From Streptomyces sp. CA-210063 (GTDB lineage Bacteria > Actinomycetota > Actinomycetes > Streptomycetales > Streptomycetaceae): 64,000 bases of DNA. Position 1 is the first letter of the stretch; every line of letters begins with the position of its first letter. This document shows, piece after piece, positions 20,571-38,578 of the stretch. Location of the stretch: the NCBI RefSeq assembly GCF_024612015.1, contig NZ_CP102512.1, forward strand, positions 5,456,001-5,520,000, in the 5' to 3' direction. The translations under genes and the position numbers were made by a program. The notes below the pieces were generated by a model. It ran no database searches and was not told where the DNA came from. It was given only the letters and a program-made list of their open reading frames with translations.

Positions 20571-22016
20571 CTAGCTCTCCAGCAGCCTCTGCCCCACGTA
20601 CTCCCCCTCAGCCGCGCCCCCAGGTACCGCGAAGAGGCCGCTCGACTCGTGGCGGATGAACTTCGACAGGGCGTCGCCGCGGTCGAGTTTGCGTTGGACG
20701 GTGACGAAGCCGCGGAGGGGGTCGGCCTGCCAGCAGACGAAGAGGAGACCCGCGTCGGGGGTGCCGTCCGCGTCGATTCCGTCGTGGAAGGAGAAGGGGC
20801 GGCGGAGCATGGCCGCGCCGCCGTTCTGGTCGGGGCGGGTGATGCGGGCGTGCGCGTTGATCGGGACGAGGAGGTTGCCCTGGGAGTCGGTCTTCTCCAG
20901 GTCCATCGCGGTCGTCTCCGTCGCCTTCGTGCCCCCGCTCAGCGGCGCCCCGTCGGACTTACGGCGCCCGATGACGTCCTCCTGCTGCTTGAGCGAGAGC
21001 TGCTCCCAGTCGTCGAGGAGCATGCGGATGCGGCGTACGACGGCGTAGGAGCCGTTCGCCATCCACGCCGGGTCGCCGGAGGTGTCCGGTGAGGCGGACG
21101 CCGGCACGAAGATCCGCTCGTCGAAGTCGGACTCGGTCGGCTTCGGGTTGCGGGTGCCGTCGATCTGGCCCATCAGGTTGCGTGCCGTCATGGGGTGGGC
21201 CGTGGCGCCCGGCGAACGGTTGAAGCCGTTCATCTGCCAGCGCACCCGGGCCGCACTGCCCGCGTCCTTCTGGATCGCGCGCAGGGCGTGGAAGGCGACG
21301 AGCGCGTCGTCGGCGCCGATCTGCACCCACAGGTCGCCGTTGCTGCGTGTCTTGTCGAGATGGTCCGAGGAGAAGTCGGGCAGCGGGTCCAGGGCGTCCG
21401 GGCGCTGTTTCTCCAGACCGGTGCGGGCGAAGAAGCTGTGCCCGAAGCCGAAGGTGACCGTCAACGACGACGGTCCCGCGTCACGGGCGATGCCCGTGTC
21501 GTCCTGGGCCGCGGCCTCGCCCGCCATCAGTCGCCGGGCCGTGTCCGACCAGCGGCGCAGCAGGGCGGCCGCCTCCTTGCGCCCCGCCCCGGCGGCCAGA
21601 TCGAACGCGACGAGGTGGCCACGGGCCTGGAGGGGCGTGGTGATCCCCGGCTGATGTTTCACGTGAAACATCACCTCCCCCGCGCCGAGGGAGGACAGGG
21701 GGGTCGCCTTCTCGGAGGAGGAAGCGGAGGAGGAGGCTGCCGCGTATCCGGCGGCGCCGCCTGCCGCGCCCAGTGCGAGGCCGGTCGCGCCGGCGGTGCC
21801 GAGCAGGCGGCGCCGGGTGATCGTTCCGTTCGCGGGGATCCCGGGCGGGATGTCGCTCTCTCGCCGTAGTTCCGCGTGGCCGGACGGCGACTGCGGGTCG
21901 TTCGTGGTTGCTCGCGCAGCTCCCCGCGCCCCTGGGGAGGTGGAGCCTGGCTCGACAGTGCTGTTTCCGGTGGTGTCGTTCCCCTCGGAAGGGACCGTCG
22001 TGGACTGGTCAGCCAT
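20571..22016 (-). CDS. dtpA: Tat-exported DyP-type haem peroxidase (DtpA/EfeB family)
   Basis: Dye-decolourising peroxidase, 481 residues, secreted by the Tat system. In S. lividans, from the literature as I recall it, DtpA is needed with Sco and ECuC for maturation of the copper oxidase GlxA and for development. The TRRRLLGTAGATGLALGAA signal begins near residue 67, after an unusually long ~65-residue leader. GQIDG (D286) is the distal GxxDG motif; INAHARI (H389) and MLRR (R406) fit the proximal His and distal Arg. ATG 22016 lies 8 bp after copCD. Residues 115-121 (VMFHVKH) are encoded by a perfect parS site, and part of the leader by a dispersed intergenic repeat. The stop codon lies in the MITE target repeat. 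Confidence 0.92.
   Translation of the reverse strand: MADQSTTVPSEGNDTTGNSTVEPGSTSPGARGAARATTNDPQSPSGHAELRRESDIPPGIPANGTITRRRLLGTAGATGLALGAAGGAAGYAAASSSASSSEKATPLSSLGAGEVMFHVKHQPGITTPLQARGHLVAFDLAAGAGRKEAAALLRRWSDTARRLMAGEAAAQDDTGIARDAGPSSLTVTFGFGHSFFARTGLEKQRPDALDPLPDFSSDHLDKTRSNGDLWVQIGADDALVAFHALRAIQKDAGSAARVRWQMNGFNRSPGATAHPMTARNLMGQIDGTRNPKPTESDFDERIFVPASASPDTSGDPAWMANGSYAVVRRIRMLLDDWEQLSLKQQEDVIGRRKSDGAPLSGGTKATETTAMDLEKTDSQGNLLVPINAHARITRPDQNGGAAMLRRPFSFHDGIDADGTPDAGLLFVCWQADPLRGFVTVQRKLDRGDALSKFIRHESSGLFAVPGGAAEGEYVGQRLLES
21653..21672. promoter_or_regulatory. parS site (ParB binding) inside dtpA
   Basis: GATGTTTCACGTGAAACATC is a perfect 20-bp palindrome containing the canonical parS core TGTTTCACGTGAAACA (21655-21670). 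Streptomyces parS sites cluster around oriC and load ParB for chromosome segregation. Unusually, this one lies in a coding region. Confidence 0.92.
21903..21933. repeat. Copy of a dispersed GC-rich repeat within dtpA
   Basis: A 31-bp stretch (CGTGGTTGCTCGCGCAG, one variant base, then TCCCCGCGCCCCTG) is repeated at 38460-38490, where it forms one arm of a long hairpin. Here it encodes part of the pre-Tat leader of the peroxidase (PGARGAARATTN). Confidence 0.75.
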
Positions 22017-22024
22017 GGTGTGTT

Positions 22025-24043: not shown

Positions 24044-24057
24044 CGGTGCTACCTCCC

Positions 24058-24555
24058 TCAGTGGCCGCTGGTCGGCTGGTACGTCGCCGACTTCACGGGC
24101 ATCTCGACCGTGATGGCCTTGGACTTGGTGAAGTTCAACCGCAGAGACACCGTCTCGCCTTCCTTCGGCTTGCGCTTCAGGTTCTCGAACATCAGGTGGT
24201 TTCCGCCGCTCTTGAGCACGAGTTCGCCGTCGGCGGGGACCTTCAGGCCCGCGACCTCCTGCATCGACTGCCCGGTCGTCTCGTGGACGGTGACGTCCTG
24301 GGCGATGTCGCTGGTGACGGAGGTGAGCTCGTCCGCCGTACCGCCGTCGTTCTCGATGACGAGATAGCCGGCGGCCATGGAGTCCGTGACGGGCTGCGGC
24401 ATGTAGGCGGCCTTCACGGACAGTTTCGCGGCGGACGAACCGGAGGAATCAGCGGAACCGGAGGAGTCGGAGGAACCGCAGCCGGTCAGGACGAGCGCGG
24501 CGGCGGCGACCAGGCCGGTGGCGGCCACCCCACGTCCGGCGAGCCGACGCCTCAC
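24058..24555 (-). CDS. ecuC: PCu(A)C-type extracytoplasmic copper chaperone
   Basis: Lipoprotein-type copper chaperone, 165 residues, of the PCu(A)C/ECuC family. The LVLTGCGSS lipobox follows a basic N-region. The ligand pattern MPQPVTDSMAAGYLVIEN ... VHETT ... NHLMFENLKR provides the His and Met residues that bind Cu(I). GTG 24555 overlaps the stop of sco (GTGA). In S. lividans, ECuC passes copper to Sco. A Ser/Asp-rich linker of about 20 residues tethers the domain to the lipid anchor. Confidence 0.92.
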   Translation of the reverse strand: MRRRLAGRGVAATGLVAAAALVLTGCGSSDSSGSADSSGSSAAKLSVKAAYMPQPVTDSMAAGYLVIENDGGTADELTSVTSDIAQDVTVHETTGQSMQEVAGLKVPADGELVLKSGGNHLMFENLKRKPKEGETVSLRLNFTKSKAITVEMPVKSATYQPTSGH

Positions 24556-25226
24556 GGGTTCTCGCCCTTGAGCAGCTTCGGCAGGTCCTTCTCGTAGTCC
24601 TGCACGGTCGCGTCCTCGCCGTACAGCACATAGCCCCCGTCGGTCTTCGGCGAGAACGCGATGACCTGGGTGCCGTGCTCGGAGACGGTCTTGCCGTTCT
24701 TGTCCTTGGTCGGCGGGTTGATGGAGATGCCGAGGGTGCGGGCGCCGGCCTGGATCTCGTCGAAGTCGCCGGTCAGGCCGACGATCTCGGAGTCGATGCC
24801 CTTGAGCCACTTGCCGAGCTCCGCCGGGGTGTCCCGTTCGGGGTCGGTGGTGACGAAGACGAGCCGGAGGTTCGCCAGCTCCGACTTCGACAGCTTCTTC
24901 GACACCTCCTTCTTCGCGACCGCGAGGTTGTTCATGGTCAGCGGGCAGATGTCGGGGCAGTTGGTGTAGCCGAAGTAGATCAGCGTCGGCTTGCCCTCGG
25001 TCTCCTTGCGGAGGTCGTACGACGTGCCGTTGGTGTCGGTGAGGACCAGGTCCGGCTTGGTGAACGGCTGGTCGAGGACCGTGGCCGCCTTGCGCGGGCC
25101 GGTGTCGGAGACCTCGGCGACCGACGTCGTGGAGTCGTCGCCCGTGCCGCAGCCGGAGAGGGTGAGGACGGCCGCGACGAGCAGGGCGCCGGCCGCGAAC
25201 GTCTTCTTCTTCGTGTTCGTGCGCAT
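24552..25226 (-). CDS. sco: SCO1/SenC-type copper metallochaperone
   Basis: Thioredoxin-fold lipoprotein, 224 residues, delivering copper to cytochrome oxidase CuA and, in Streptomyces, to GlxA. Chosen ATG 25226 gives a Lys-rich N-region and the lipobox LTLSGCGTG. The copper-binding CPDICP (CxxxC) motif is in TNCPDICPLTMNNL and the distal His is in SEHGTQVIAFSP. The upstream frame to 25412 has no start signal and would bury the lipoprotein signal. Followed by ecuC with a 4-base overlap. Confidence 0.95.
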   Translation of the reverse strand: MRTNTKKKTFAAGALLVAAVLTLSGCGTGDDSTTSVAEVSDTGPRKAATVLDQPFTKPDLVLTDTNGTSYDLRKETEGKPTLIYFGYTNCPDICPLTMNNLAVAKKEVSKKLSKSELANLRLVFVTTDPERDTPAELGKWLKGIDSEIVGLTGDFDEIQAGARTLGISINPPTKDKNGKTVSEHGTQVIAFSPKTDGGYVLYGEDATVQDYEKDLPKLLKGENP

Positions 25227-25326
25227 AGAAAAATGTCCCAGATGTTCGAGCCCCGGCGCGCACGGGGGCGTACGACGTCCGCGTGCGCGCCGAGGGAAGG
25301 AGGAAGAAGGCCGGAGGGCCCGAGCC

Positions 25327-26079
25327 TCAGGCGTTCGTGCGCCGACGGCCGGCCAGGACGCCGTACGCCACACCCGCGGCGCCGACGACGATGCCGACGA
25401 TGCCGAGCACACGGGCGGTGGTGTCGCTGGTGTCGGCGGGCGCGGCGGTCTCGTTCGACGCGGCCTCGGCGTCCGCGGCGTCCTCCGACGTGTCCGAGGC
25501 GGTGGAGGAGTCGGAAGAGCCGGCCGAGCCGTGGTGGTCCTCGGTCGCGGCGGACAGCGCGAGCACCGGCGCCGGGTTCTCGGGCTCCTCCTGGCCCTCC
25601 TGCGGGACCTCGATCCAGCGGGCGACGTCCTTGTTGGAGTACGTCTGGACGGCCTTGAAGACCAGTTCGTCGGTGTCCTCGGGGAGCTGGCCGATGGAGA
25701 CCGGGAACTTCTGGAAGAAGCCCTTCCCGATGCCGTCGCCGGTGGCGGTCCAGGTGATCTTGGAGACGGCCTCGTCGATCTGCTCGCCGTGCAGTTCGAC
25801 CGGCTTGTCGAGCTTGGCGCTGGTGACCTCGATCTTCCAGCCGGGAATGGCCTCCGGCTGGGCCGAGGCGAGCGGGTGGTCGGTCGGGAAGTTCACTTCC
25901 AGCTTGGTGGTCGTGGCGTTGTCGCGCTCGTTGGGGACCTTGAAGTTGACGGTCGCGTAGCCGCCCTTGGCCGCCGTGCCCTCCGCCGCGACGCTGACGT
26001 GTGCGAACGCGGGGCCGGACAGGATGAGGACGGCCGAACCGGCGAGGGCGCCGACGGCGGCGATACGAGAAGTCTTCAT
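25327..26079 (-). CDS. YcnI-family copper-associated membrane protein
   Basis: DUF1775/YcnI protein, 250 residues. The signal peptide is cleaved at FAHVSV so that a His is at or near the mature N-terminus, as in Cu(II)-binding YcnI. The domain body (NFKVPNERDNATTTKLEVNFP ... WTATGDGIGKGFFQKFPVSIGQLP) is followed by an Asp/Ser/Ala-rich stalk and a C-terminal membrane anchor (VLGIVGIVVGAAGVAYGVLAGRRR). ATG 26079. It is the first clear gene of the copper operon and lies 100 bp ahead of sco. Confidence 0.92.
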   Translation of the reverse strand: MKTSRIAAVGALAGSAVLILSGPAFAHVSVAAEGTAAKGGYATVNFKVPNERDNATTTKLEVNFPTDHPLASAQPEAIPGWKIEVTSAKLDKPVELHGEQIDEAVSKITWTATGDGIGKGFFQKFPVSIGQLPEDTDELVFKAVQTYSNKDVARWIEVPQEGQEEPENPAPVLALSAATEDHHGSAGSSDSSTASDTSEDAADAEAASNETAAPADTSDTTARVLGIVGIVVGAAGVAYGVLAGRRRTNA

Positions 26080-26224
26080 GACTGGTGACACTCCACAGTG
26101 AATGAGGGAGAAGCGAGGGAGAGGAGCGGCGCGCGCCGAGAGCCGGGAGCGGAACCGGTGCGCGCGTGCCGACGCCGTACGACGGCGTCCCCCCAGGTGC
26201 TGTGTGGAGTGAGTGCGCGTCGTG

Positions 26225-27049
26225 TCAGGCGGCGAGGGCGAAGGTGGGCGCGGCGGTCGGCGGGCCGCGCCGGACGACCGTGTGCTGGAGGGCGGTCGTC
26301 CGCAGGGCCGCCGGTGCCGCGTACGTGGCGGCGCGTGGGGCGCGCGACAGGGCTTCCGGCGCACCCGGGAGCCCGGATCGCAGGGCCCGCGCCAGCGCGA
26401 GTGCCCCGCGCAGGGACCGTACGAGCGGTTCCTGGGCCGACAGCCGGACGAGGCGGAGCAGCGCCAGGTCGCCGTGGCGGAGCACCCATCCGGCGGCGAC
26501 GGCCGCGAGCACATGGCCGAGCAGCATGGGCAGCGACGGCAGGACGGCGGCGGAGGAGCCCGCCGCGGTCGTCATGGCGTCCGCCGGGTCGTGCACGGCG
26601 TGCGTGCCGCCGACCCCGGCGTCGATGAGGATCCGCCGGGCCTCGGTAGGGCTCAGGGCCGCCGCGGTCGTGCCGCACACGAACCGGGCGGCGCGCTCGA
26701 CGAGCTGCGCGTCCAGGGTCTCGGCGGTCCTTGACGCGGCCGCCGTCCCCGTGCCGTGCTGGCCCAGCCCGAACAAGGTGTGCAGCACGGTCTGGCCCAC
26801 CGCCAGCATTCCCGCGATCCCCGCCAGCGAGCGTTCCCGTCCGGCCAGCGCGGCCGCGACGGCGAAGACGCCGGCGAATCCGACGCCCAGGCTCCACAGC
26901 GGGATCGTCGCGCACGAGGCGAGCGCGTGCCCGGCTCCGGCCAGCACGACGCAGACCGCGGCGAACACCGCGGCCCGCAGAAGCCGGAGATCACCTCCGG
27001 CGCGTGATCGGCGCGGGGTGCCTTGCCGGTGGGGGTGGGGGGCAGTCAT
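26225..27049 (-). CDS. Hypothetical polytopic membrane protein
   Basis: No domain recognised. 274 residues with at least four hydrophobic stretches: LLRAAVFAAVCVVLAGAGHALA, TIPLWSLGVGFAGVFAVAAALAG, LAGIAGMLAVGQTVLHTLFGLGQ and LPMLLGHVLAAVAAGWVLRHGDLALL, the last two His-containing. The C-terminal ~60 residues are cytoplasmic, Ala/Arg-rich. It precedes ycnI on the same strand (145-bp gap), and such a protein often accompanies this copper cluster in Streptomyces, so a role in copper handling is plausible but unproven. Confidence 0.75.
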   Translation of the reverse strand: MTAPHPHRQGTPRRSRAGGDLRLLRAAVFAAVCVVLAGAGHALASCATIPLWSLGVGFAGVFAVAAALAGRERSLAGIAGMLAVGQTVLHTLFGLGQHGTGTAAASRTAETLDAQLVERAARFVCGTTAAALSPTEARRILIDAGVGGTHAVHDPADAMTTAAGSSAAVLPSLPMLLGHVLAAVAAGWVLRHGDLALLRLVRLSAQEPLVRSLRGALALARALRSGLPGAPEALSRAPRAATYAAPAALRTTALQHTVVRRGPPTAAPTFALAA

Positions 27050-27185
27050 GGCGGGCTCATCATCGCATCGGGGTGCTCCGCTGGGGTTGCCGGGTCATGA
27101 CGGGAGGTACGGGGGGAACTGAGCCGGTGTTCAGGTGTGGGGGTTTGTGCGCGGTAGGGGGTGGGGTGTGCGGTGGGTGTGGCTT

Positions 27186-27362
27186 GTCGCGCAGTTCCCT
27201 GCGCACCAAGAGCGTGGGTCCCGGCGGTCCTAAGTGCGCGGAGTTCCCTGCGCCCCCAAGGACGCGCCTTCCCTGCGCCCCCAAGGACGCGCCTTCCCTG
27301 CGCCCCCAAGGACGCGCCTTCCCCGCGTCCCCACAGGACGCACAATTCCCCGCGCCCCAAAA
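27186..27362. repeat. Array of degenerate 26-bp GC-rich repeats
   Basis: Five to six tandem, imperfect copies of GCGCCTTCCCTGCGCCCCC followed by AAGGAC, for example at 27243, 27269, 27295 and 27321. They resemble the GCAGTTCCCCGCGCCCC arm of the repeat at 38469. They fill part of the 537-bp gene-free spacer 27050-27586 between two divergent genes. Confidence 0.7.
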
Positions 27363-27586
27363 ACCCGCGTCGTCCGTGTCTCGTCAGGACGTGCCGTCGC
27401 CGCGTCCCTGAAGGTGGGTCGGAGGGTCGAAAGTGACGGGTGATTCGGAAGGGTTCGGTCCGCATACACCGATTGTGAGGTGGGCGCATCCGCCGTATGG
27501 GCGGAGAGACGGGTTCCGGGCGATTGCGCGGGGGCGTTGGCGGCAATACGTAACGGTATGTCGAGCCGCGGCCAGGAGGCTGGAGC

Positions 27587-28033
27587 ATGAGCATCTGGTG
27601 GTCACTCCATTTGCGGCGTGAGGCTGCGAGCGTGCCGCTCGCCCGGCGGCTGCTGATGGGCACGATGGAGACGGCGGGCGTCGACCCGGACGTCTCCTAC
27701 GACCTCTCCGTCGCCCTCAGCGAGGCCTGTGCCAACGCCGTCGAGCACGGGGGCGCGGTCGCTGCGGGCGGTACGTCCGAGGCGTACCGGGTCACCGCCT
27801 ACCTCGACGGCGAGAAATGCCGTATCGAGGTCGCCGACTCCGGACCCGGGTTCCCCCACCGCCACCCGGTCCGCCCGGCCCACACCGACGACGAGAACGG
27901 CCGGGGCCTCGGCCTCATCCGTGAACTCGCCGACCACGTCCACATCGGCAACAAGCCGGGCCGCGGCGGCGCGGTGGTCAGCTTCGACAAGATCCTCAAG
28001 TGGCGCGAGGGCGCGCCGTTGGTGGCGGTGTAG
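27587..28033 (+). CDS. Anti-sigma-type ATP-binding protein (HATPase, SpoIIAB/RsbW-like)
   Basis: 148-residue single-domain GHKL ATPase. N box LSEACANAVEHG, G1 box VADSGPGFP and G2 box ENGRGLGLIRELADHV are intact. Proteins of this type in Streptomyces inhibit sigma factors or phosphorylate anti-anti-sigma factors. Start ATG 27587 follows AGGAGG with good spacing. It faces the end of the Fxs operon across a 220-bp C-rich spacer (28034-28253) with no visible gene, so a functional tie to that operon is uncertain. Confidence 0.9.
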   Translation: MSIWWSLHLRREAASVPLARRLLMGTMETAGVDPDVSYDLSVALSEACANAVEHGGAVAAGGTSEAYRVTAYLDGEKCRIEVADSGPGFPHRHPVRPAHTDDENGRGLGLIRELADHVHIGNKPGRGGAVVSFDKILKWREGAPLVAV

Positions 28034-28253
28034 CCCGCCCGCTCCGGCACGACGGCCGTGCCCGCGCTCTCTCTGGCCACGCCCCTCCGCCCGCCCCGGC
28101 GCGGCGACGGCCCCGCCCCACCCCGGCACACGCCCGCACCCGGCCCCACACCCCGCGGCGCGCGACGGCCCCTTCTCCGCCCCGGCACGCGACCGCACCC
28201 GCCCCACACACCCCCCCGGCACCCACCCCACCCCGCCGCCCCCTCCACGCCCC

Positions 28254-31200
28254 TCAGATCTGATGCGGCTCCAAGTCCCGCCCCACCCGCTGCCAGGAGC
28301 GGACCAGCGCTGTGACCTGGTGGGTGGTGCCCAGGAGTTGGGAGAGCCGGGTCACCATCTTCTTGTGGAGCCGGTCAGCCTCCTCCGTGCGGCCGGTGTC
28401 CCGGAGGGTGATCGCGAGGTTGGCCGTGCCGACCAGCACATCGGGGTGGTCGGGGCCGAAACGCTCGCGGAGCCCCTCCACGGCCTGGCGTTCCCCGTGC
28501 TCGGCGCGCTCGTGCAGGCCCAGGTCCCCGTAGGCGTTGGCCAGGTTGAGGGCGGCGGACAGGACGGCCGGATGGTCGTCGCCGAGGGTCGCCGCCAGGC
28601 CGTCGTGGGCGTGGCGGCTCAGCTCCTGCGCCTTCTCCGCGTTCCCCAGGACCCGGTGGTACATGGCGAGGTTGTTGAAGCAGTACATGGTGAACGGATG
28701 CTCGGCGCCGAACGAGTCCCGATACCCGTCCAGCACCTCTTCGACCTGCCGTACCGCCCGCGCGGGACCGTCCTCGGGGTCCGTGACGAAGTAGTCCGCG
28801 GCGAGGTTGAGCCCGCAGGCCAGGACCTCGGGGATGGTGCTGCCGTAGCGGTCGTGATAGCGGGCGTACGTCTTCCAGGTCTCCTCCGTGATCCGCAGTG
28901 CCTCGGCGATACGGCCCGCCTTGCGCAGCGAGACGGCGAGGCTCTTGTCGGCCTGCAGCACCTCCGGCACACCCGGGTTGAACACCTGCTCGAACCCTTC
29001 ACGCACCTCGCGCAGCAGCTCGGCGGAGGTCCGGTAGTCGCCGAGGTCGCGCAGGTCGCGTGCGTGGTGACCCTTGGTGGCGAGGGTGTAGGGATGCGTC
29101 GGGCCCAGCAGGGCGGTACGGCGGCGGACCGTGTCCTCGGTGAGGCGGCGGGCGGTCTCGCTGTCGCCGCCCAGCCGGAAGTCGATGGCCAGGTTGTTGG
29201 CGGCGGACAGCGTGCGCCCGTGGTCCTCGCCGAAGATCTCCTTGAAGCCAAGATGGATCCGCAGGTCCAGTTCCAGGGCCTCCTTGTAGCGGCCCAGCGC
29301 CCTGTAGTCGGCGGCGAGGCTGCCCGAGGCGATGAGGATGCTCGGGTGCCCCTCTCCGAAGAGCCGTCGTCGGCCGTCCAGGGTGCTTTCGTCCATGGCC
29401 CTCGCGGCCTGGTACTCACCCTGGGCGCGCAGCACGTTGGCCAACTGGAAGCGGAGGTTGAGAATCTGCTCGTCGTCCGCCTCCGCGAACTCGGTCCATT
29501 TTTCGTCGAGTTGGGTGGCCAGGGTCCGCGCGGCGTGCAGTTCGCCACGCCTGCCCAGGTAGCGGACGCGGTCGACCATCAGCTGGCGCGGCCCCTCCTC
29601 CGCGCACTCGCGGATCTTCGAGGGCGTCAGATGCGGCCAGATCACCTCGAACCCGAGCCACTGTGCGGGATCGTCCACGGCACCCTCGCGCGGCCGGGCG
29701 GCGGCGAGAATGCGGTGCACCTCGTGCATGGTCTGCATGTACCGCTGGTCGTCCAGGCTGTCCCGTACCGCCGCCTGGACCAGGCGGTGCACCTGGATCG
29801 AGTTGTCGGCCGAGTCGACCTTGGCGAGGGCGAAGCGGTTCAGGGCCTGGGTGACGCGGCCGAGCATGTAGCGGGCGCGCAGGTCCCGGTCGTACGGGAG
29901 CAGGGCGTCGATCATCGCGTCGCTGCTGATCAGGGACATCGAGATGGGCTCGGCCGAGAAGAAGGCGCACAGTTCGAGCAGCCGGGCCGCCGCCGGGGAC
30001 TCCTCGCGCAGCCGGGTGATGGAGATGTTCCAGGTGACGCCGACGGAGGACGGGTACTCGACGGCGTCCACGGCCTCCTGCACGGACAGCACCCGGGTGG
30101 ACTGCTCCCGCAGCTGCTCGATGTACTCGTGCACCGGGGTGGCCGTCGCCTCCAGCCAGGCCGCCGCGACCTCCACGGCGAGCGGCAGGTCGCCCAGCGC
30201 GTCGGCGACCCGGTCCGCGTCGGCCTCGCGCAGCCCGGGCACCCGGCGGCACAGATGCTCCACGCTCTCCTCGCGGGTGAAGACCTCCATCTCCAGCGAC
30301 TGGACCAGGGTCGAGCCGGGCCGGGCGCGGGTGGTGACCAGGATGTGGCCGTAGACGTGGTCCTGCGGGGCCCCGGTCTGATCCGGGAACAGGTGCGGCG
30401 CCCGGTCCAGGTCCGGGACGTTGTCGAAGATCAGCAGCCAGCGCGCGCACGGATTCCCCTGCCGGAGGGCGGTCATGGCCGCCTCGGCCGCCTCGGAGAC
30501 GTCGTCGCCGACGGGCAGGCCCAGTTCCCGGGCGAGCGCTGCCACCTTCGGCGGGACCAGGTCCGGCTGTTCGGCGTCGATCCACCACACCAGGTCGTAG
30601 TCCGCCTTGAACCGATGGGCGTACTCGCGGGCCAGCTGGGACTTGCCCACCCCGCCCAGGCCGTGCAGCACCTGCGGCAGCCGCTGCCCGGAGCGGTCGC
30701 TGACCAGGCGCTCGCGCAGCCGGTCCAGGATCGGGGAGCGGCCGGTGAACCACGGGTAGCGGGGCTGGACGTTGGAGATCCGCGTCCCGGTGTTGGGGAA
30801 GCGCGCGGCGCCGCCGGGCGGTGCGGGCAGGACGTCCGGGTGGTCGAGGCCGGTGAGCAGCGTGGTGTACGCCCGCTCCTCGTCCAGCCGGCTGAGGTCG
30901 AGCGCGCCCCGGCCGGACTGCGGCAGGCTGAGCCGGACGTCGTCGACGCGCACCGCCACCGGCCGGTTCCGCGGCCCCCGCCCCCGGACGCGTACGGCGT
31001 CGTCCCAGGCCCGGCGCGCACGGCGGGAGTTGAGGAAGGCGTGGGAGACCACGGCGAGCAGCCGTTCCGAGCCGTCGGACGTGTCCTCGCCGTCGGCCCC
31101 GTCCCGGTCGTCGTCCCGAGGCAGCGCGTCGGCGTCCTGAGGCAGCGCCCGGACGTCCATGGGCGCCACCTCGAACCCGGCGTCCCGCAGCACCGACTCC

Positions 31201-32249
31201 AGCCAGTCCACCCACATCCGGTCCTCGGAGACGTAGTACAGGACCAGCCGGGAGACCGGCAGCGGCCGCCGCCGGGTGTAGGCGGCCTTGTACCGGGCCC
31301 GCTTCTCCTCGCCGATCAGGGGCAGCCCGGTGACCCGGCCCTCGGTGACGACGGAGGTGACCCGTTCGCAGGCGCTCAGCATCGAGTTGGCCGTCTTCGG
31401 CGGGTCGCCGAAGGCCGCCAGGATCTCCTCGTAGGCGTAGTACGGCTGGTAGAGGATCTCCATCGACGACCAGTAGTCGGTGAGCCGCTCGCCGTCCAGG
31501 CCGGCCGGCAGCCCGGCGAAGCGCTCCCGGGCCAGCGCGCGCCCCGCGTCGAGCTTGTCCTTCTCGCCGAGGTCGATGCGCATGGCCAGCGGCAGGATGC
31601 GAATGCCCTTGTGGCCGAACCGCTCCCGGATGTCCTGGGCGACGGCGGCGGCGCCCTCGATGCTCTGGCCGCTGAGGGTGTAGCAGACGACCAGCGTGTT
31701 GGGCATCTGCACGGTGCAGATGTCCGCGAGGTCGCTGAGGCCGGTGCGGCTGTCGATCAGGGTGTAGTCGTAGTGGCGTCGCATGTCGGAGCGCATCGCG
31801 TCGAAGAACTGGCCGCCGCCGTAACTGGCGTAGAAGAGCTCCCAGTCCAGGTTGCCGACCAGCGGGTAGTCGTCGTGGCGCCGCCCGGCGGACAGGAAGT
31901 CCAGGCTGCCGCCCTCGGGGAACGCCCAGTCGAGGGTGAGCGCGTGGGGCCGGACCCGGGCGTGCCTGCGGTGCCAGTCGGGGGCGCGGTCGGGCAGGTC
32001 GAGCAGGGCCTGCCGCCGGTAGTCGTCGATGATGTTGATCAGCCCGGGTGTGGCCCGGAGCATGGCGGGGTTCAGGAACGGGTGGAAGAACTTGTGCAGG
32101 CCCGGCGCCTCCAGGTCCCAGTCGACGACCAGGACGCGGTGTCCGTTCGCGGCCAGGATCCATGCCACGTTGGCGAGCGTCATGGTCCGCCCGGTGCCGC
32201 CCTTGTACGAGTAGAACGTGATCACCGTGCCGTTGCGGTTCTCCGTCAT
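28254..32249 (-). CDS. fxsT: FxsT: MinD-like/TIR-like/NB-ARC/TPR protein of the FxSxx-COOH system
   Basis: 1331-residue multidomain protein. Residues 1-~300: MinD/ParA-like P-loop ATPase with the deviant Walker A YSYKGGTGRT (K16) and VVDWDLEAPGL. About 335-450: TIR-like segment (LVLYYVSEDRMWVDWLESVL ... VVSHAFLNSRRARRAW); the position expected for a catalytic Glu is not Glu. About 510-800: NB-ARC/STAND NTPase with HGLGGVGKSQLAREYA and LLIFDNV. About 880-1331: ten or so tetratricopeptide repeats (FAEADDEQILNLRFQLANVLRAQGEYQAAR and successors). The plan resembles NLR-type sensors, where ligand sensing by repeats releases an effector. Last gene of fxsA-B-C-T, 93 bp after fxsC. The role is unknown. 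Confidence 0.9.
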   Translation of the reverse strand: MTENRNGTVITFYSYKGGTGRTMTLANVAWILAANGHRVLVVDWDLEAPGLHKFFHPFLNPAMLRATPGLINIIDDYRRQALLDLPDRAPDWHRRHARVRPHALTLDWAFPEGGSLDFLSAGRRHDDYPLVGNLDWELFYASYGGGQFFDAMRSDMRRHYDYTLIDSRTGLSDLADICTVQMPNTLVVCYTLSGQSIEGAAAVAQDIRERFGHKGIRILPLAMRIDLGEKDKLDAGRALARERFAGLPAGLDGERLTDYWSSMEILYQPYYAYEEILAAFGDPPKTANSMLSACERVTSVVTEGRVTGLPLIGEEKRARYKAAYTRRRPLPVSRLVLYYVSEDRMWVDWLESVLRDAGFEVAPMDVRALPQDADALPRDDDRDGADGEDTSDGSERLLAVVSHAFLNSRRARRAWDDAVRVRGRGPRNRPVAVRVDDVRLSLPQSGRGALDLSRLDEERAYTTLLTGLDHPDVLPAPPGGAARFPNTGTRISNVQPRYPWFTGRSPILDRLRERLVSDRSGQRLPQVLHGLGGVGKSQLAREYAHRFKADYDLVWWIDAEQPDLVPPKVAALARELGLPVGDDVSEAAEAAMTALRQGNPCARWLLIFDNVPDLDRAPHLFPDQTGAPQDHVYGHILVTTRARPGSTLVQSLEMEVFTREESVEHLCRRVPGLREADADRVADALGDLPLAVEVAAAWLEATATPVHEYIEQLREQSTRVLSVQEAVDAVEYPSSVGVTWNISITRLREESPAAARLLELCAFFSAEPISMSLISSDAMIDALLPYDRDLRARYMLGRVTQALNRFALAKVDSADNSIQVHRLVQAAVRDSLDDQRYMQTMHEVHRILAAARPREGAVDDPAQWLGFEVIWPHLTPSKIRECAEEGPRQLMVDRVRYLGRRGELHAARTLATQLDEKWTEFAEADDEQILNLRFQLANVLRAQGEYQAARAMDESTLDGRRRLFGEGHPSILIASGSLAADYRALGRYKEALELDLRIHLGFKEIFGEDHGRTLSAANNLAIDFRLGGDSETARRLTEDTVRRRTALLGPTHPYTLATKGHHARDLRDLGDYRTSAELLREVREGFEQVFNPGVPEVLQADKSLAVSLRKAGRIAEALRITEETWKTYARYHDRYGSTIPEVLACGLNLAADYFVTDPEDGPARAVRQVEEVLDGYRDSFGAEHPFTMYCFNNLAMYHRVLGNAEKAQELSRHAHDGLAATLGDDHPAVLSAALNLANAYGDLGLHERAEHGERQAVEGLRERFGPDHPDVLVGTANLAITLRDTGRTEEADRLHKKMVTRLSQLLGTTHQVTALVRSWQRVGRDLEPHQI

Positions 32250-32342
32250 GCGCCTGCCGTCCTCCGCCCGTCCGACCTGCCCTTGCCGTACGCCCGTTCC
32301 CCACCTGCGCCCGTACGCCCGTACGTCCCGGTGACACCGGGC

Positions 32343-33593
32343 CTAGCCGCTCAGATCCGCCGGGCCCCTCAGCCGTGGAGGTCCGGTGCGGGGTCCCAAC
32401 GGCGGAAAGGTCCGCGCGTGTGCCTCGTAGGAGGCGACGGCCTGCTTCACGGCCGTCTGCAGTTCGTTCCCGAAGGCGTCCAGGGTGCGGATGCCGCCGT
32501 TGAGGGTCCGGTGCCCGCTGCCCTCCGTCGTCCGCGTGGCCAGGGCCTTCTCCGTGAGCGCGGTCAGTCTCTTGTCCCGCGCCGACCCGGCGTCGTCGTC
32601 GCACCTGGGGATCATCACGCTGATCCACGGCCGCTGTTCCTCGCACAGCCGTTCCATCAGCTCCCGGCCCCGGGCGGAGCCCAGTGCCCACCGGTCGAGC
32701 AGCAGCAGTCCGGGCGCCCGGGGCGGTCCCGGGCCGAGCAGACGGTCGGCGTCCTTCTCGAAGTCCCCGATGTTCACCTTGTAGTCCATGGTGCGCACCA
32801 GGTCGGCCGCGTGTTCGCCGAGCGGCCGGGCCGACGCCGGGTGGTACGGGTTCCAGTCGCGCGGCAGTGGACCGTAGCAGTCGGGCGCGCGGCCCGGCGG
32901 CAGATCGGCGCGGGTGCAGGCCAGGACCGAGATGTCGAACTCCGGGGGATGGCCCAGGGCCCCGAACGCGCTGGGCAGCGACTCGTACTCGTCGTACACC
33001 TGCCCCTCGTCCAGCTCGGTCGTCTTGGCCACCTGCACGATCTGCTTGGCCAGCCGGTACAGGGCCCGCTCGTACTCGTCGCGGAGGTAGCGGAGTTTGG
33101 TCAGCCCGTAGAAGCCCTCCTCCGCGTAGTCCTGGCCGAAGGACACGTGGTTGAACTGGAGGTCCCTGGCCGCGTGCGGCAGCTGGGCGAGTTCCACGGG
33201 CACCCATAACGCGGGGATGATCGCGTGCCCCCGGGCCTCACCGCCGCGCGCCCGGTGGCTGATCTGCCGCTGGGTGAAGGCCCACCACTCCCGGCCGCAC
33301 TGCTCGCTGCGGAAGTAGCGCGGCGAGTACAGCGGCACGAACACCTTGCAGCGCGCGAGGTTCTCCGACAGCTCGTCCGTCCAGCGGGTGCCGACCGCCA
33401 TGCCCTGGTCCAGGAAGCCGGCCTTCGCGCCCCGCGGCAGATCGGTCATCTGCATGATGTGGGCGCACAGCCCGTCGTACAGCTTTTTCACCCAGACGTC
33501 CGGATCGAGGTCACCGGCGTCATTTCGCGGCGTGTGCGCATAACTGAGGAAGAAATAAGGGCTTCCGCCGCCCCTGGCCGCATCTCCTCGCAC
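32343..33593 (-). CDS. fxsC: FxsC: TIR-like protein of the FxSxx-COOH system
   Basis: 416 residues. N-terminal ~200 residues are a TIR/SEFIR-like domain: YFFLSYAHTPRND, WTDELSENLARCKVFVPLYSPRYFRSEQCGREWWAF, with Glu in CGREWW at the place of the catalytic Glu of TIR NADases (inference). The C-terminal half is the family-specific FxsC region (FDISVLACTRADLPPGR, WNPYHPASARPLGEHAADLV, LLLLDRWALGSARGRELMERL). Start GTG 33593 with GGGGGG upstream. Codon 129 (33207-33209) is TTA in ALWVP, making translation dependent on bldA tRNA. Lies 75 bp after fxsB. Confidence 0.9.
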   Translation of the reverse strand: MRGDAARGGGSPYFFLSYAHTPRNDAGDLDPDVWVKKLYDGLCAHIMQMTDLPRGAKAGFLDQGMAVGTRWTDELSENLARCKVFVPLYSPRYFRSEQCGREWWAFTQRQISHRARGGEARGHAIIPALWVPVELAQLPHAARDLQFNHVSFGQDYAEEGFYGLTKLRYLRDEYERALYRLAKQIVQVAKTTELDEGQVYDEYESLPSAFGALGHPPEFDISVLACTRADLPPGRAPDCYGPLPRDWNPYHPASARPLGEHAADLVRTMDYKVNIGDFEKDADRLLGPGPPRAPGLLLLDRWALGSARGRELMERLCEEQRPWISVMIPRCDDDAGSARDKRLTALTEKALATRTTEGSGHRTLNGGIRTLDAFGNELQTAVKQAVASYEAHARTFPPLGPRTGPPRLRGPADLSG

Positions 33594-33668
33594 CCGTGCC
33601 CCCCGATGCCCGGTGACTTTCCTCAGTGTAGGAAGAGCGCGGCGGCCCGTGGAATATGCCGAACCGGC

Positions 33669-36062
33669 TCAATGTCCCGGCGGCCGAACAGTCCGCCGGT
33701 GCTCCTCCGCCGCCCGTCGGGCCGCCCGCAGTGCGTCCACGCTCACCGCGTCCCCGGCCAGCGCCTCCCGGAGCCCGGCGACGAACCGCTCCCCGTCCTC
33801 CGTCAGCGCCTTCGATGTCGCCAGTGTCTCCACCGCCTGAGCCGTCTGGTCCCGCCACCGTGAGAACCGCACCTCCGCGTCACGGCCGCCCCCGCCCCGC
33901 CATCGTGCCCGCCAGAAGTCGACCACCGCCAGATGCGCGTACGTCCCCTGCAACAGCCCCTCCAGAGGGCGCGGGTCGGCCCGCCAGGGCGCGTAGAACA
34001 GCGTCTCGCAGGCCGGATCGTGGAGGTCCACCAGATCCAGTACGGCGCCCAGCTTCACATGCTGGAACTCATGGACGAGCAGCAGCGCCAGCGTCTCCGG
34101 TGTGCCCGGGCGGGCGATGGCCACCGCGCCGAAGGCGTCGCGGGCCGCCGAGCTGAGGTCGGCGTTCTCGGGCGAGGGCAGCAGCGGGGTGATCACGCGG
34201 AGCCCGGCGGCGATTCCCGGGGCGTACTCGGGCAGTTCGCGGCGGATCCAGGCCCAGGCCGCCGTCAGGCCGGCCCGCCACGCCTCGGCCTCGCCCTCGG
34301 TGAGCCGGGGGTGTGCCGGGTGGCCGTGGCAGTCCCGCCAGGGGTCGGTGTCCTCCAGGGCGACGGACCAGCCGTCCAGGTCGAACCGCCGAGTCCCCTG
34401 CCAGGCGGGGTCCTTGGCGCCCGTCCGGCCCACCGTGTACGTCCGGCCGCCCGCGTGGACCGTGCAGCCGTCGGCGTCCGTGCGGACCTCGGCCTGTTCG
34501 ATGCCCGCCTCCAGCGTCAGCGTCCCGAGCGTGGGCAGACGCAGCAGGCCGTCGCGGACCGGGACGACGACCGTTTCCGCGCGCCCGGCGCGCAGCGCGG
34601 CGGCCGCGGTGATCTCCGCGATCCCGTGTACGGCCGTCGCGGCCGCCTCCGCGTCGCCGCCGAGGCAGCGCAGGGCCCAGGTCCGTACATAGGGGTGGGC
34701 CAGGACCCGGTCCACCGACTCGGGTGCCTCGCCGTCGAGGACGGTCAGCGTCCGCCAGGCGTCCTCGCCCTGCGGGGTGTGCGTCGTCTCGTGCCACACA
34801 TGCCCCAGCAACTCGCGGACCAGGGAGAGTTGGTGGCGGGCCAGCAGATCCACGGTGGCGGCCGTGCCACGACCGGTGGCGAGTTCGGCGAGGTGGTGCT
34901 CGGCGAGCGCCGGCCGGACGGACTGGTCGGTCATATGACGGTCCCGGAGGTCGGTGATGAGGGACAGCAGATCGGAGCAGTACACGGAAGGGTTGCGGAA
35001 TCCGCTGCCGTCGGACCGGTACCGGTGGGCGTAGAGGCCGCCGCCGCAGGAGCGCACGACCGGACAGGCGCGGCACTGCTCGGCCAGCCCGTCGAGGCCC
35101 TGCTGCCGGGCCACGATGCCCGGATGCGCGGCCACCTCGTCCAGGGAGTGGGCGAACACGTCCAGGCCGGTGGCGGGGGCGCCGTCGTGCGCGGTCTTCA
35201 GGGAGTCGGCCTGTTCGAAGGTCCCGTCGGTCTCGATCACGGCGAGGTCGGCCGGGGCCAGCCCCAGGGACTCGGTCAGGCTGCTGTCGCCGCGCAGGGT
35301 CCGCAGGACGGAGTCGAAGACACGGACGTCCATGGTGCGGCCGGTCGCGGTCCAGCGGTCGTGGACGGCCAGCAGCCAGCGCGCGTACGCCGTGCCGTCG
35401 GTGTCCTCGGCCGGGCGCGGCGGCGGCTCGTCCCAGGTGGCGTGCGGGAGGAGGAAGTCGACGCGCGGCGGGGCGAGTTCGGCGAGCGCGTCATAAACGG
35501 CGACGGGGTCGTTGCGCAGGTCGATGGTGCACAGGATGCCCGCGAAGAGGTGCCGGTAGCGGGGCTGGTTGAGCAGGGCGATGCCTCTGAGGACCCGGTC
35601 GTGGCTGCTGCGTCCGTCGGCGTAGCGGCGGTGCAGGTCGTTCGCGGCCCGGTCGCCGTCCAGCGAGACGCCCACCTTGATCCCGAACTCCGCGAACAGG
35701 TCCAGGAACCGCTCGTCGAGGGTGACGGCGTTGGTGTGGATCCGCAGGTCCAGCTCGCACACGCCGTCGAGGGCGGCGGTCAGTTCGGCGGCGGCCCCGC
35801 GCAGCCGGGTCCGGCCGGCGAGGAGGGGTTCGCCGCCGTGCAGCACGACGTGCACGGCGTCCAGTTGATGGGTCTTCGCGTGCTCGGAGATACGTTCCGC
35901 CGTGGCGCGCAGGACCTCGTCCGACACCACCGGGGGCCGACCGCGCCAGCTCTGGTCCGCGTGTTCGTACACATAGCAGTGGTCGCAGGCGAGATCGCAG
36001 CGACTGTGCATCTTCAGCACGAACTGGCGCAACGGCAGGTGCGGTCGGCCCATGACGGTCAT
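33669..36062 (-). CDS. fxsB: FxsB: radical SAM/SPASM cyclophane-forming maturase with HEXXH module
   Basis: 797 residues. C22, C26 and C29 (CDLACDHCY) bind the radical SAM [4Fe-4S] cluster; HGGEPLL and the GVSLDG strand are standard. The SPASM-type auxiliary cysteines are in CRACPVVRSCGGGLYAHRY and YCSDLL (about residues 340-380). The C-terminal half (about 430-797) contains HEFQH near residue 662, a zinc-protease-like motif fused to FxsB proteins. FxsB enzymes install a three-residue cyclophane between the Phe ring and a later side chain in FxSxx peptides. Two in-frame ATGs (36062, 36053) lack a strong ribosome site. It starts 27 bp after fxsA. Confidence 0.93.
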   Translation of the reverse strand: MTVMGRPHLPLRQFVLKMHSRCDLACDHCYVYEHADQSWRGRPPVVSDEVLRATAERISEHAKTHQLDAVHVVLHGGEPLLAGRTRLRGAAAELTAALDGVCELDLRIHTNAVTLDERFLDLFAEFGIKVGVSLDGDRAANDLHRRYADGRSSHDRVLRGIALLNQPRYRHLFAGILCTIDLRNDPVAVYDALAELAPPRVDFLLPHATWDEPPPRPAEDTDGTAYARWLLAVHDRWTATGRTMDVRVFDSVLRTLRGDSSLTESLGLAPADLAVIETDGTFEQADSLKTAHDGAPATGLDVFAHSLDEVAAHPGIVARQQGLDGLAEQCRACPVVRSCGGGLYAHRYRSDGSGFRNPSVYCSDLLSLITDLRDRHMTDQSVRPALAEHHLAELATGRGTAATVDLLARHQLSLVRELLGHVWHETTHTPQGEDAWRTLTVLDGEAPESVDRVLAHPYVRTWALRCLGGDAEAAATAVHGIAEITAAAALRAGRAETVVVPVRDGLLRLPTLGTLTLEAGIEQAEVRTDADGCTVHAGGRTYTVGRTGAKDPAWQGTRRFDLDGWSVALEDTDPWRDCHGHPAHPRLTEGEAEAWRAGLTAAWAWIRRELPEYAPGIAAGLRVITPLLPSPENADLSSAARDAFGAVAIARPGTPETLALLLVHEFQHVKLGAVLDLVDLHDPACETLFYAPWRADPRPLEGLLQGTYAHLAVVDFWRARWRGGGGRDAEVRFSRWRDQTAQAVETLATSKALTEDGERFVAGLREALAGDAVSVDALRAARRAAEEHRRTVRPPGH

Positions 36063-36089
36063 GCGGGTGTCGTCGCGTTTCGGCGGCTG

Positions 36090-36287
36090 TCAGACGGAGG
36101 ACTGGAAAGCCGCCACCGCGACCCTTCCCGGACCCCTCCGTTCGACGCCGTTCGATACGGCGCGGGTCAGAGCGGGCGACAGCGCGCCGCTGCTCTGCGC
36201 CGCCAACCGCACCAAGGACACCCGCTCGGGACCGTCGGCGGCCGTAGTCCCTGACTCTGCGGCCGTGGGGTCGAGGGATGCGTTCAT
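36090..36287 (-). CDS. fxsA: FxsA: FxSxx-COOH RiPP precursor peptide
   Basis: 65 residues ending AFQSSV, i.e. F-Q-S-S-V at the carboxyl end, exactly the FxSxx-COOH signature of this RiPP family. The rest is the leader, with a hydrophobic recognition-like segment VSLVRLAAQSSGALSPALTRAV in the middle and no signal peptide. ATG 36287 with GAGG upstream. It is directly followed by fxsB. The predicted modification is a cyclophane formed on F61 with the Ser at 63 by FxsB. Whether the C-terminal tail is cleaved and exported is not known. Confidence 0.93.
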   Translation of the reverse strand: MNASLDPTAAESGTTAADGPERVSLVRLAAQSSGALSPALTRAVSNGVERRGPGRVAVAAFQSSV

Positions 36288-36382
36288 GGGGACCTCATCA
36301 ATCTGTGCGTGGAAACTGACGGGGTTGCGGAGTCTTGCGGCTCAATGAAGCAGATGCCGACAGGAATTGCTCACTCATGCAC

Positions 36383-36407
36383 CGACCGCAGAAGAAGTTA
36401 GCGGTCG
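36383..36407. promoter_or_regulatory. Inverted repeat upstream of fxsA
   Basis: CGACCGC and GCGGTCG, 7-bp arms with an 11-bp A-rich spacer, centred about 108 bp upstream of the fxsA start. It could be an operator. The gene-free stretch 36288-36669 between fxsA and the divergent dioxygenase shows no other clear element. Confidence 0.3.
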
Positions 36408-36669
36408 ACGGGGCGAACGGTGCCGAATATTCGGTCGTCCACTGATCGCGACCAGAACATAGCCGACGCCGAGGAGTGCTTCGGACGGCACCACAAGCCT
36501 CGTCCGCATGCGGGTCGGCAAACGTGAGAACCGTCTCACCGCCTGCCGGGGAGTACGGCGGTTGGGGGCAGAGGTGACATTCCGGGCGGCTTCAGTGTTC
36601 TCAGCACTCTCAGTCCCCGCACAGCCACGGCCAAACCCGCTGACGGACTGCGTCCCTAACTTCACTGCC

Positions 36670-37606
36670 ATGACGGGAAACCACAAAAGCAAAACGATCA
36701 CCCGGCGCCGCGCTCTCGCGGTGACCGGAGGGACGGTCGCGGCCGGCGGGCTCGCGGTCGCCGGCTACCGGTCCGCGTTCGCCGACGAGGCGACGACCAC
36801 CACCGAGGCGACGGCCACGGCGGAGGCCACGAGCACCAGCGACGCGTGCATGACGCTGATGTCGAGCGTCACCGAGGGGCCGTACTACCTCGAACGCCCT
36901 GGTCCGGAAGGACATCACCGAAGGCAAGAGCGGTGTCCCGCTGACGCTGCGCCTCACGGTCGTGGACGCCACCGACGGCTGCACCCCGGTCCCCGGCGCG
37001 GCCGTGGAGATCTGGCACTGCGACGCCTGGGGCTACTACTCGGGCTACACCACCGCGAACCCCGGCGGTTCGGCGCCCGCCGAGAGCGAGGACGGCTCGA
37101 CCGCCGACGACGCCACCTACCTCCGTGGCTACCAGATCGCGAACGCGAACGGGGTCGTCAAGTTCGAGACCATCTTCCCCGGTTGGTACACCCCGCGCAC
37201 CTGCCACATCCACGTGAAGGTGCACACGGGCGGCGAGAAGGAGGACGGCACGTACGAGGGCGGCAAGGTCAACCACACCGGCCAGTTCTTCTTCGACGAC
37301 GAGATCGCCCAGGAGATCTTCACGCTCGAGCCGTACTCCCAGCACAGCGGCAGCTACACCACCCTCGACAACGACATGGTCTACGACGGTGGCGGCGCCT
37401 CCAGCGGCCTGCTCACCCTCAAGCCCGTGAAGAAGGCCGACCCGGCTCGCGGCTACAAGGGCTTCCTCACCCTCGGCATCGACCCCGACGCCGAGAACAC
37501 CGGCGCCGGCAGCGGCGGTGGCGGCGAGGGCGGTACGCCCCCCTCCGGCGAGCCCCCGACGGACGCCCCGACCGACGGCGCCACGGCCTCCGAGTCGGCC
37601 TCGTAG
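36670..37606 (+). pseudogene. Tat-exported intradiol ring-cleavage dioxygenase, frameshifted
   Basis: Starts ATG 36670 with a twin-arginine signal (TITRRRALAVTGGTVAAGGLAVAG), then the Thr/Ala-rich linker and the conserved TEGPYYLE at nt ~36890. Here the frame breaks: the continuation ALVRKDITEGKSGVPLTLRLTVVDATDGCTPVPGAAVEIWHCDAWGYYSGY is in the next frame (open to TAG 37606). The shift lies in CGAACGCC, 36891-36898, a net gain of one or loss of two bases, outside a homopolymer. Iron ligands of intradiol dioxygenases (Tyr/Tyr/His/His) lie in WGYYSG, GWYTPRTCHIHVK and neighbours and are preserved. Likely a secreted catechol dioxygenase if repaired. A Gly/Pro/Ser tail ends it. Confidence 0.8.
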
Positions 37607-37614
37607 GTACGCCC

Positions 37615-38433
37615 ATGAGCAGCCGCGAGGACGAGACGCTGGCGCAGGCCGCGGTGACCGCGCTGACCTGGCAGTTGGAACTGTCGCCCAAGCCCGGACT
37701 GCCCGACCCGCGCGACCTCGGTGCCCGGGTCACCCGGCAGGACCACCGTGCCCTGCGCTGGTCGGCGAAGGCACTGGTGCCCGGCCTCGCGGCGATGGCG
37801 GCCTGTGCCCGCCGCAACGGTGCGGCGACGCCCGAACTCCGGGCCGAGCTCGGCGCGATCGGGCGCTGCACCGAACACTCCGTGCAACGCGCCGGGGGCG
37901 GGCATCGCGGTGCCACCTGGGTGCTCGGGCTGCTGGTCGCCGCGGCGGCCATGGAGCCCGGCGCCCGGGGGCGCGAACTGGCCGCCACCGCGAAGAAGAT
38001 CGCCGCGCATCCCGACCGCCGGGCGCCGCGGCGGCCCTCCCGGGGGTCGTCCGTCTCCGCCCAGTACGGGGCGGCCGGGGCCCGGGGCGAGGCCCGGGCG
38101 GGCTTTCCCCATGTGCGGCGGGCGCTGGACGTGCTGGCCGAGGCCCGCACGGCGGGGACGCCGGAGCCGTATGCCCGCCTCGACGCGCTCCTGACGGTCA
38201 TGTCGACCCTCCAGGACACCGAGTTGCTCTACACCGCCGGGCCCCACGGTCTTCGCCACGTCCAGGCGGGTGCGCGGGCCGTCATCGATGCGGGGGGTAC
38301 GACGACTGACGCCGGTCATGAGGCCCTGACCACCCTCGACACGGACCTTCAGGGGCGGGGATGGAGTCCGCGTGGGAGCGGGTCGCTGCTGGCGGGCGCG
38401 CTGTTCGTGGACGCGATAGCGCTCGGGCGGTGA
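37615..38433 (+). CDS. CitG/MdcB-like triphosphoribosyl-dephospho-CoA synthase family protein
   Basis: 272 residues. Family motifs are recognisable: SPKPGLPD (SPKPGLVD in relatives), the TEHSVQRAGGGHRGATWVLGLL segment corresponding to the NTHKGA region, and AQYGAAGARGEARAGFPHVRRAL. These enzymes make the prosthetic-group precursor of citrate lyase or malonate decarboxylase. No lyase or decarboxylase genes are nearby, and two motif positions differ from the norm, so its substrate may be different. Starts 8 bp after the dioxygenase, so they are probably cotranscribed. ATG 37615. Confidence 0.8.
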   Translation: MSSREDETLAQAAVTALTWQLELSPKPGLPDPRDLGARVTRQDHRALRWSAKALVPGLAAMAACARRNGAATPELRAELGAIGRCTEHSVQRAGGGHRGATWVLGLLVAAAAMEPGARGRELAATAKKIAAHPDRRAPRRPSRGSSVSAQYGAAGARGEARAGFPHVRRALDVLAEARTAGTPEPYARLDALLTVMSTLQDTELLYTAGPHGLRHVQAGARAVIDAGGTTTDAGHEALTTLDTDLQGRGWSPRGSGSLLAGALFVDAIALGR

Positions 38434-38468
38434 GGGCTCGTGGGCGGGTGCGGGTGAGTCGTGGTTGC

Positions 38469-38542
38469 TCGCGCAGTTCCCCGCGCCCCTGAAAGACCCC
38501 GGGCGCGACCCATGCCGCTGAGGGGCGCGGGGAACTGCGCGA
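38469..38542. repeat. Long perfect hairpin of the dispersed GCGCAGTTCCCCGCGCC repeat
   Basis: Arms 38469-38490 (TCGCGCAGTTCCCCGCGCC plus CCT) and 38521-38542 are perfectly complementary over 22 bp with a 30-nt loop. It lies between the convergent CitG-like gene and pepP and probably acts as a bidirectional terminator. Copies of one arm occur at 21903 and, degenerate, at 27186. Confidence 0.8.
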
Positions 38543-38578
38543 CCAGCCCCACTCACCCGCAGACGACAACGGGCGCCG

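Follow-up and report, generated by a model that had tools for sequence, protein, structure and literature searches.

A complete FxSxx-COOH gene set, fxsA-fxsB-fxsC-fxsT, occupies positions 36287..28254 on the minus strand of a 64,000-nucleotide stretch of Streptomyces sp. CA-210063 (contig NZ_CP102512.1, positions 5,456,001 to 5,520,000; hereafter the window). We propose, with a probability of roughly 0.38, that the modified FxsA peptide is a self-made ligand of the STAND NTPase FxsT, which would control the TIR domain of FxsC, making FxsABCT a self-contained receptor circuit. In this circuit, FxsB would install a Phe–Ser cross-link within the FxSxx tail of the window FxsA and probably also β-hydroxylate the peptide with its α-ketoglutarate (aKG)-HExxH domain. 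Once modified, the tail would keep its carboxylate free and remain intracellular, serving the tetratricopeptide repeat (TPR) region of FxsT as a private ligand. A trigger that alters the amount, modification or accessibility of FxsA would change the state of the ligand and lead, if the direction is as we suppose, to assembly of FxsT. The MinD-like domain and pseudo-TIR of FxsT would then recruit FxsC, whose TIR domain may use NAD+ to kill or to signal, presumably for defence. Slightly more tentatively, we picture FxsT as an NLR-like receptor with a dedicated cross-linked ligand, in which the TPR region reads the FxsA cyclophane tail and an exchangeable module of MinD and pseudo-TIR summons FxsC, a separate protein with the catalytic TIR. 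The model is built on five observations: the parts themselves, their linkage, the split of a TIR glutamate between FxsC and FxsT, the co-occurrence of MinD with FxsC, and co-variation of protein distances.

All four genes score above their NCBIfam cut-offs (given in brackets as score/cut-off), and all features described below lie on the minus strand. fxsA (36287..36090; TIGR04268, 38/28 bits) encodes a precursor peptide of 65 amino acids (aa) with the C-terminus VAAFQSSV. fxsB (36062..33669; TIGR04269, 609/370; TIGR04267, 183/40) encodes a 797 aa radical SAM/SPASM protein with an aKG-HExxH domain, and fxsC (33593..32343; NF040588, 241/130; TIGR04276, 223/55) encodes a 416 aa protein read from a GTG start. 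The last gene, fxsT (32249..28254; NF040586, 995/300; NF047398, 132/90), encodes a 1331 aa STAND NTPase. Pfam assigns TIR_2 to FxsC, and to FxsT a further TIR_2 along with NB-ARC, DUF7779 and TPRs. These scores, together with the recurrence of the set across loci, exclude a chance gene set. Successive genes are separated by only 27, 75 and 93 bases, so a single transcript is likely. A preliminary description of this DNA had named four adjacent minus-strand fxs genes, an FxsA of 65 residues ending in FQSSV, a radical SAM/SPASM FxsB with an HEXXH module, and an FxsT with MinD-like, NB-ARC and TPR parts; the translations and the NCBIfam and Pfam matches bear out each of these assignments. Kaur et al. 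2020 (PMC7159879) describe FxSxx peptide modules both in VMAP ternary systems and in stand-alone actinobacterial systems, the latter with an AP-ATPase carrying an ‘inactive MinD’. The window cluster is confirmed as a well-formed member of the FxSxx-COOH kind, with all four components, FxsC and FxsT downstream, the same AP-ATPase with MinD, and no departure from the published arrangement.

The preliminary description also spoke of two TIR-bearing proteins. TIR_2 is present in both, but the catalytic Glu is found only in FxsC. Glu at this position is kept in 131 of 135 FxsC proteins and in none of 134 FxsT proteins (four of the latter being gaps), and the FxsT domain is accordingly a pseudo-TIR. 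The TIR domain of the window FxsC spans residues ∼12–190 (Pfam TIR_2; predicted local distance difference test (pLDDT) of the FxsC model 89), and its Glu102 (codon 33288..33290) aligns with the catalytic Glu of NADase TIRs. The partner in RUN1 is the Glu of ‘CLDEL’ (a weak match, E 0.63), which we take to be the catalytic Glu of RUN1 (cf. the E100A entry 7s2z). With the TIR fold and the catalytic Glu both present, FxsC is a probable NAD-cutting enzyme; adaptor TIRs score nearly as high, so the fold alone does not single out NADases. The C-terminal domain of FxsC (residues 205–416; 32346..32981) alternates β and α elements (model pLDDT 90) and is remotely flavodoxin- or receiver-like (best Foldseek E 1.6e-3), structure searches having returned no strong fold match. 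It is possibly a second TIR-like domain, as the RUN1 TIR appears at rank 36 (E 0.05).

FxsT begins with a MinD-like domain (residues 1–325; 31275..32249), whose P-loop, KGGTGRT, lies at residues 16–22. The pseudo-TIR (residues 339–464; 30858..31235; TIR_2, E 7e-12) and the NB-ARC NTPase (residues 508–719; 30093..30728; PF00931, E 2e-7) follow, the NTPase with both the P-loop (HGLGGVGKS) and the Walker B motif (WLLIFDN) that mark STAND/NB-ARC proteins. The TPR region (residues 851–1331; 28257..29699; TPR_10/TPR_12) is the part proposed to read the FxsA tail; near its C-terminus lies a strongly conserved motif, RDLEP (residues 1324–1328). The MinD P-loop reads KGGTGR[TS] or a near variant, with the second Lys replaced by Arg in all 134 FxsT proteins. 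MinD is also the most conserved domain among 59 non-redundant FxsT (mean pairwise identity 0.66, against 0.62 for DUF7779, 0.59 for NB-ARC, 0.50 for TPR and 0.42 for the pseudo-TIR), which suggests that it has a working role even should it not hydrolyse ATP. The system resembles plant TIR-NLRs and bacterial TIR-effector systems such as SPARTA in having a Glu-bearing TIR fold (FxsC) and an NB-ARC switch (FxsT). Unlike in those systems, the Glu-bearing TIR is here a protein of its own, and the receptor's domains include a pseudo-TIR and MinD.

Presence of FxsC and presence of the MinD domain go hand in hand. Across the loci compared, both are present in 111, neither in 46, and one alone in just 3. 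These loci were chosen by FxsB and are therefore silent on FxsT without FxsB; most are the nearest kin of the window copy, taken as the best 80 of 410, and others were picked in addition. A locus had to reach 19 kb to be counted; 83 rows on shorter ones and six identical rows were excluded. FxsC and a MinD-bearing NB-ARC-TPR protein occur together in 100 of 104 fused-type FxsB loci, in keeping with the tie between fxsC/fxsT and fxsB that the preliminary description drew. The tie is not absolute: two of four MinD-bearing FxsT proteins from outside the FxsB set have no FxsB match in the 6–8 kb upstream. An NB-ARC-TPR protein of any kind is present in 101 of the 104 fused-type loci and in 49 of 56 short-type loci. 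A motif search with a strict pattern found no catalytic TIR in 37 MinD-less partner receptors. In class-level genomes, comparing the FxsC and FxsB lists by hand gave a listed FxsB no more than 10 kb away for 35 of 42 FxsC places and none so close for the other seven.

Co-variation points to a division of the system into two modules. We correlated pairwise protein distances over 98 complete loci, and a set of 75 non-redundant loci gave the same order. FxsC correlates with MinD at 0.74 and the FxsB radical SAM domain with TPR at 0.81, while MinD and TPR reach just 0.64 though they share one polypeptide. The FxsA tail correlates at 0.77 with FxsB-HExxH, 0.60 with the radical SAM domain, 0.55 with TPR, 0.32 with NB-ARC, 0.15 with the FxsC TIR and 0.13 with MinD. 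In 300 bootstraps over loci, the tail–TPR correlation exceeded those of the tail with MinD, the FxsC TIR and NB-ARC every time, and radical SAM–TPR exceeded MinD–TPR in 99.3%. The segment of FxsT that correlates best with the tail is residues 967–1046 (0.62), and the partial tail–TPR correlation is 0.48 (p 0.002) with NB-ARC, MinD and the FxsC TIR held. We take these correlations as a lead to the TPR region as the likeliest reader of the FxsA peptide. FxsA, FxsB and TPR would form a recognition module, and MinD, the pseudo-TIR and FxsC an output module; the FxsC–MinD pairing is firm and the tail–TPR pairing tentative.

Several results limit this lead. With all other parts held, FxsB included, the partial tail–TPR correlation is just 0.08, and FxsB-HExxH alone keeps a clear link to the tail (0.55). 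The tail signal is largely the difference between two classes of locus, those whose FxsB has an intact HExxH motif and those in which it is lost. Within the intact class (n = 53) the partial tail–TPR correlation is 0.19 (p 0.02) and that of the tail with NB-ARC is higher, at 0.38 (p 0.002). Within the lost class (n = 22) TPR has no tail signal; the FxsC TIR (0.30) and MinD (0.23) show more, and the radical SAM domain correlates with MinD at 0.46, above its correlation with TPR. Likelihood tests are mixed: given foreign trees, FxsB data do best on that of TPR, but TPR data do worst on that of FxsB, and every foreign tree is rejected. The partial radical SAM–TPR correlation holds in both classes (intact 0.63, p 0.002; lost 0.25, p 0.042).

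The chemistry predicted for the FxsA tail is a Phe-Ser cyclophane with a free carboxylate at the FQSSV terminus. The relevant maturase is MscB, which we take to be a member of the FxsB family. MscB links C4 of Phe to Cβ of Ser (PMC11002830); cyclophane chemistry of the Phe-Ser type is in the literature, and the preliminary description likewise calls the maturase chemistry of the family known. Triceptides, three-residue cyclophane peptides, share with the window system the Phe-x-Ser motif and a radical SAM/SPASM maturase; the cross-link in the window peptide is predicted from sequence. FxsB residues 11–378 align to PDB 9gm3, the ChlB radical SAM domain, at 262 bits. Residues 373–768, the HExxH part, align to PDB 22nu at 312 bits, including the HEFQH motif (residues 664–668; 34059..34073; from the translation and this alignment). 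FxsB has the domain order of ChlB and other fused aKG-HExxH radical SAM-hydroxylases together with their HExxH motif, and is predicted to share their activity.

These alignments bear on the proposal of Kaur et al. 2020 (PMC7159879) that a peptide is released from the processed C-terminus and functions either as a toxin or as a signal amplifying the response; the proposal assumed the HExxH protein to be a peptidase. The premise that the HExxH domain cuts FxsA is weakened because FxsB aligns with 22nu, HEFQH included; the domain resembles a hydroxylase rather than the assumed peptidase, and a fused HExxH relative reported after 2020 is an aKG-dependent hydroxylase. One related HEXXH enzyme is described as cleaving peptide backbones oxidatively, and hydrolytically without a leader, which is a point for cleavage. 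However, neither an exporter nor a dedicated protease appears among the window neighbours scanned with NCBIfam and Pfam (part of the open reading frames (ORFs)). We consider a released toxin or signal unlikely.

The HExxH motif is often degenerate, being intact in 83 and lost in 60 of 143 distinct fused FxsB proteins with an exact FxSxx ORF (75 rows without the fused domain, 18 identical and 13 without an exact FxSxx ORF were left out). FxsA was picked by pattern, and at least one pick (L086, ending in FPSES) may be a chance ORF. The residue before the FxSxx Phe is Ala in 75 of the 83 intact loci and in two of the 60 lost. We considered whether, on loss of HExxH, this Ala becomes Thr or Ser as a mimic of the hydroxyl. 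Eleven of the lost loci carry Ile, and HExxH state changes only five times on the tree, too few for independent pairs to become significant; we do not claim a hydroxyl mimic.

An AAC(3)-family acetyltransferase gene stands between fxsB and fxsC (e.g., in L035, L061, L076, L121, L142 and L146, among others) in 52 of 102 fused-type clusters with fxsC downstream; by HExxH state the counts are 28 of 71 (intact) and 24 of 31 (lost). PF02522 matches six examples, with scores of 178 to 263 bits, and four that were scanned fall below the NCBIfam AAC(3) cut-offs. The gene is absent from the window copy and present in the copy at 7.39 Mb in the same genome. The enzyme may acylate FxsA.

A further possibility is that FxsA works as a licence, much like an antitoxin: modified FxsA would restrain FxsT and FxsC, and its loss in infection or stress would free the TIR. 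The order of the genes, with fxsA-fxsB ahead of fxsC-fxsT, is reminiscent of antitoxin-first operons, and the FxsA-like tails differ among the loci of the four FxsB copies that exceed the cut-off in the host genome (FQSSV, FNSAL, FQSSL and FESAL). An obligate antitoxin is not readily allowed, however, by L287, where FxsC and FxsT are paired, and L281, where a MinD-bearing FxsT stands alone, neither having an fxsB match in 6–8 kb upstream, and we regard a licence as rather improbable. Under the ligand reading that we prefer, the four copies may constitute several private ligand-receptor pairs in one genome.

L281 and L287 come from a converse sample of 20 FxsT-family places without a nearby FxsB among the matches listed; neither has either enzyme in the 6–8 kb upstream. 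Two others (L280 and L282) are complete, with a divergent radical SAM protein, and L288, at a contig end, is a receptor alone. The remaining 15 (L283–L286 and L289–L299) have a gene with an HExxH domain nearby, no radical SAM match, no MinD and no FxsC. In these, a hydroxylase-like peptide enzyme pairs with an NLR, and no cyclophane maturase was found.

Within the genus, 123 of 199 genomes have an FxsB above its cut-off and 186 a member of the FxsT family above its own; of the 11 in which FxsT has no match at E 1e-50, none is among the FxsB matches listed. The class-wide figures are 69 of 345 genomes for FxsB and, in a largely overlapping draw, 30 of 340 for FxsC, 28 of these 30 also being in the FxsB list. 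The window copy sits between genes for PepP (an Xaa-Pro aminopeptidase) and DUF1775, the DUF1775-to-PepP interval being window 26515–38578. PepP is present in 41 of 41 genomes of the genus, and in 38 of 41, including the window's own, PepP and DUF1775 share a contig, with 1.5 to 12.4 kb between them (gaps taken by hand). This interval is below 2.3 kb in 21 genomes and longest in the window, and nine related loci have fxs genes in the same slot with both flanks; on this evidence the window copy is in a slot of variable length and stable in its clade. Variable-length slots between conserved genes are usual for accessory genes. A developmental or metabolic regulator of filamentous actinomycetes, acting outside defence, would suit a class sample with FxsB in 19 of 126 genera, the near-ubiquity of the FxsT family in the genus and a Pfam scan of neighbours that brought no defence gene to notice, but both this slot and the 76 of 199 genus genomes without FxsB over the cut-off speak against it, leaving it a similarly low probability to that of a licence.

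The neighbours scanned include PepP, CitG and copper genes, and the ORF adjoining fxsT has no NCBIfam or Pfam match. Copper-handling genes (CopC/CopD, PCu(A)C and DUF1775) occupy window 20571–26514, with a Dyp-type peroxidase beside them. In the CitG-like ORF (window 36508–38433), Pfam CitG matches only residues 379–635, leaving the first 370 without a match, and in relatives its similarity is often divided over several ORFs. Upstream of fxsA, we claim no regulatory site, as 14 upstream stretches are conserved among close relatives only. PADLOC matches are partial or weak. FxsC and the FxSxx peptide module also belong to the VMAP ternary (vWA-MoxR) conflict systems; no MoxR, vWA or VMAP gene occurs among the window genes scanned (part of the ORFs). 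Five of 72,556 plasmid records match FxsC, and the two that were examined carry VMAP-fused FxsC instead of fxsABCT, so that we do not infer plasmid carriage of the whole system. In L248 and L249, on Streptomyces and Kitasatospora plasmids, FxsC is fused to SAV_2336-type proteins beside VMAP and AAA ATPase genes. Seven phage matches to FxsB each cover less than half of the protein at about 23–27% identity, and were not taken as FxsB.

New here are the split of the TIR Glu, the FxsC–MinD pairing, the TPR co-variation, the likeness of the HExxH domain to a hydroxylase and the AAC(3)-family gene; the first three were not found in the available portions of Kaur et al. 2020. Many genomes of the genus have the gene set, the chemistry of the peptide class is published, and its function was not found in the literature, our searches, with little reach into subscription papers, having returned no paper on the function of FxsC or FxsT. 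The two-module picture turns the link between a cyclophane peptide and an NLR into a question of binding between the TPR region and the modified tail. If the ligand model is true, the HExxH part would change from the protease assumed in 2020 to an enzyme that decorates the ligand, and FxsT would be an NLR-type receptor tuned by a modified peptide that the cell makes for itself.
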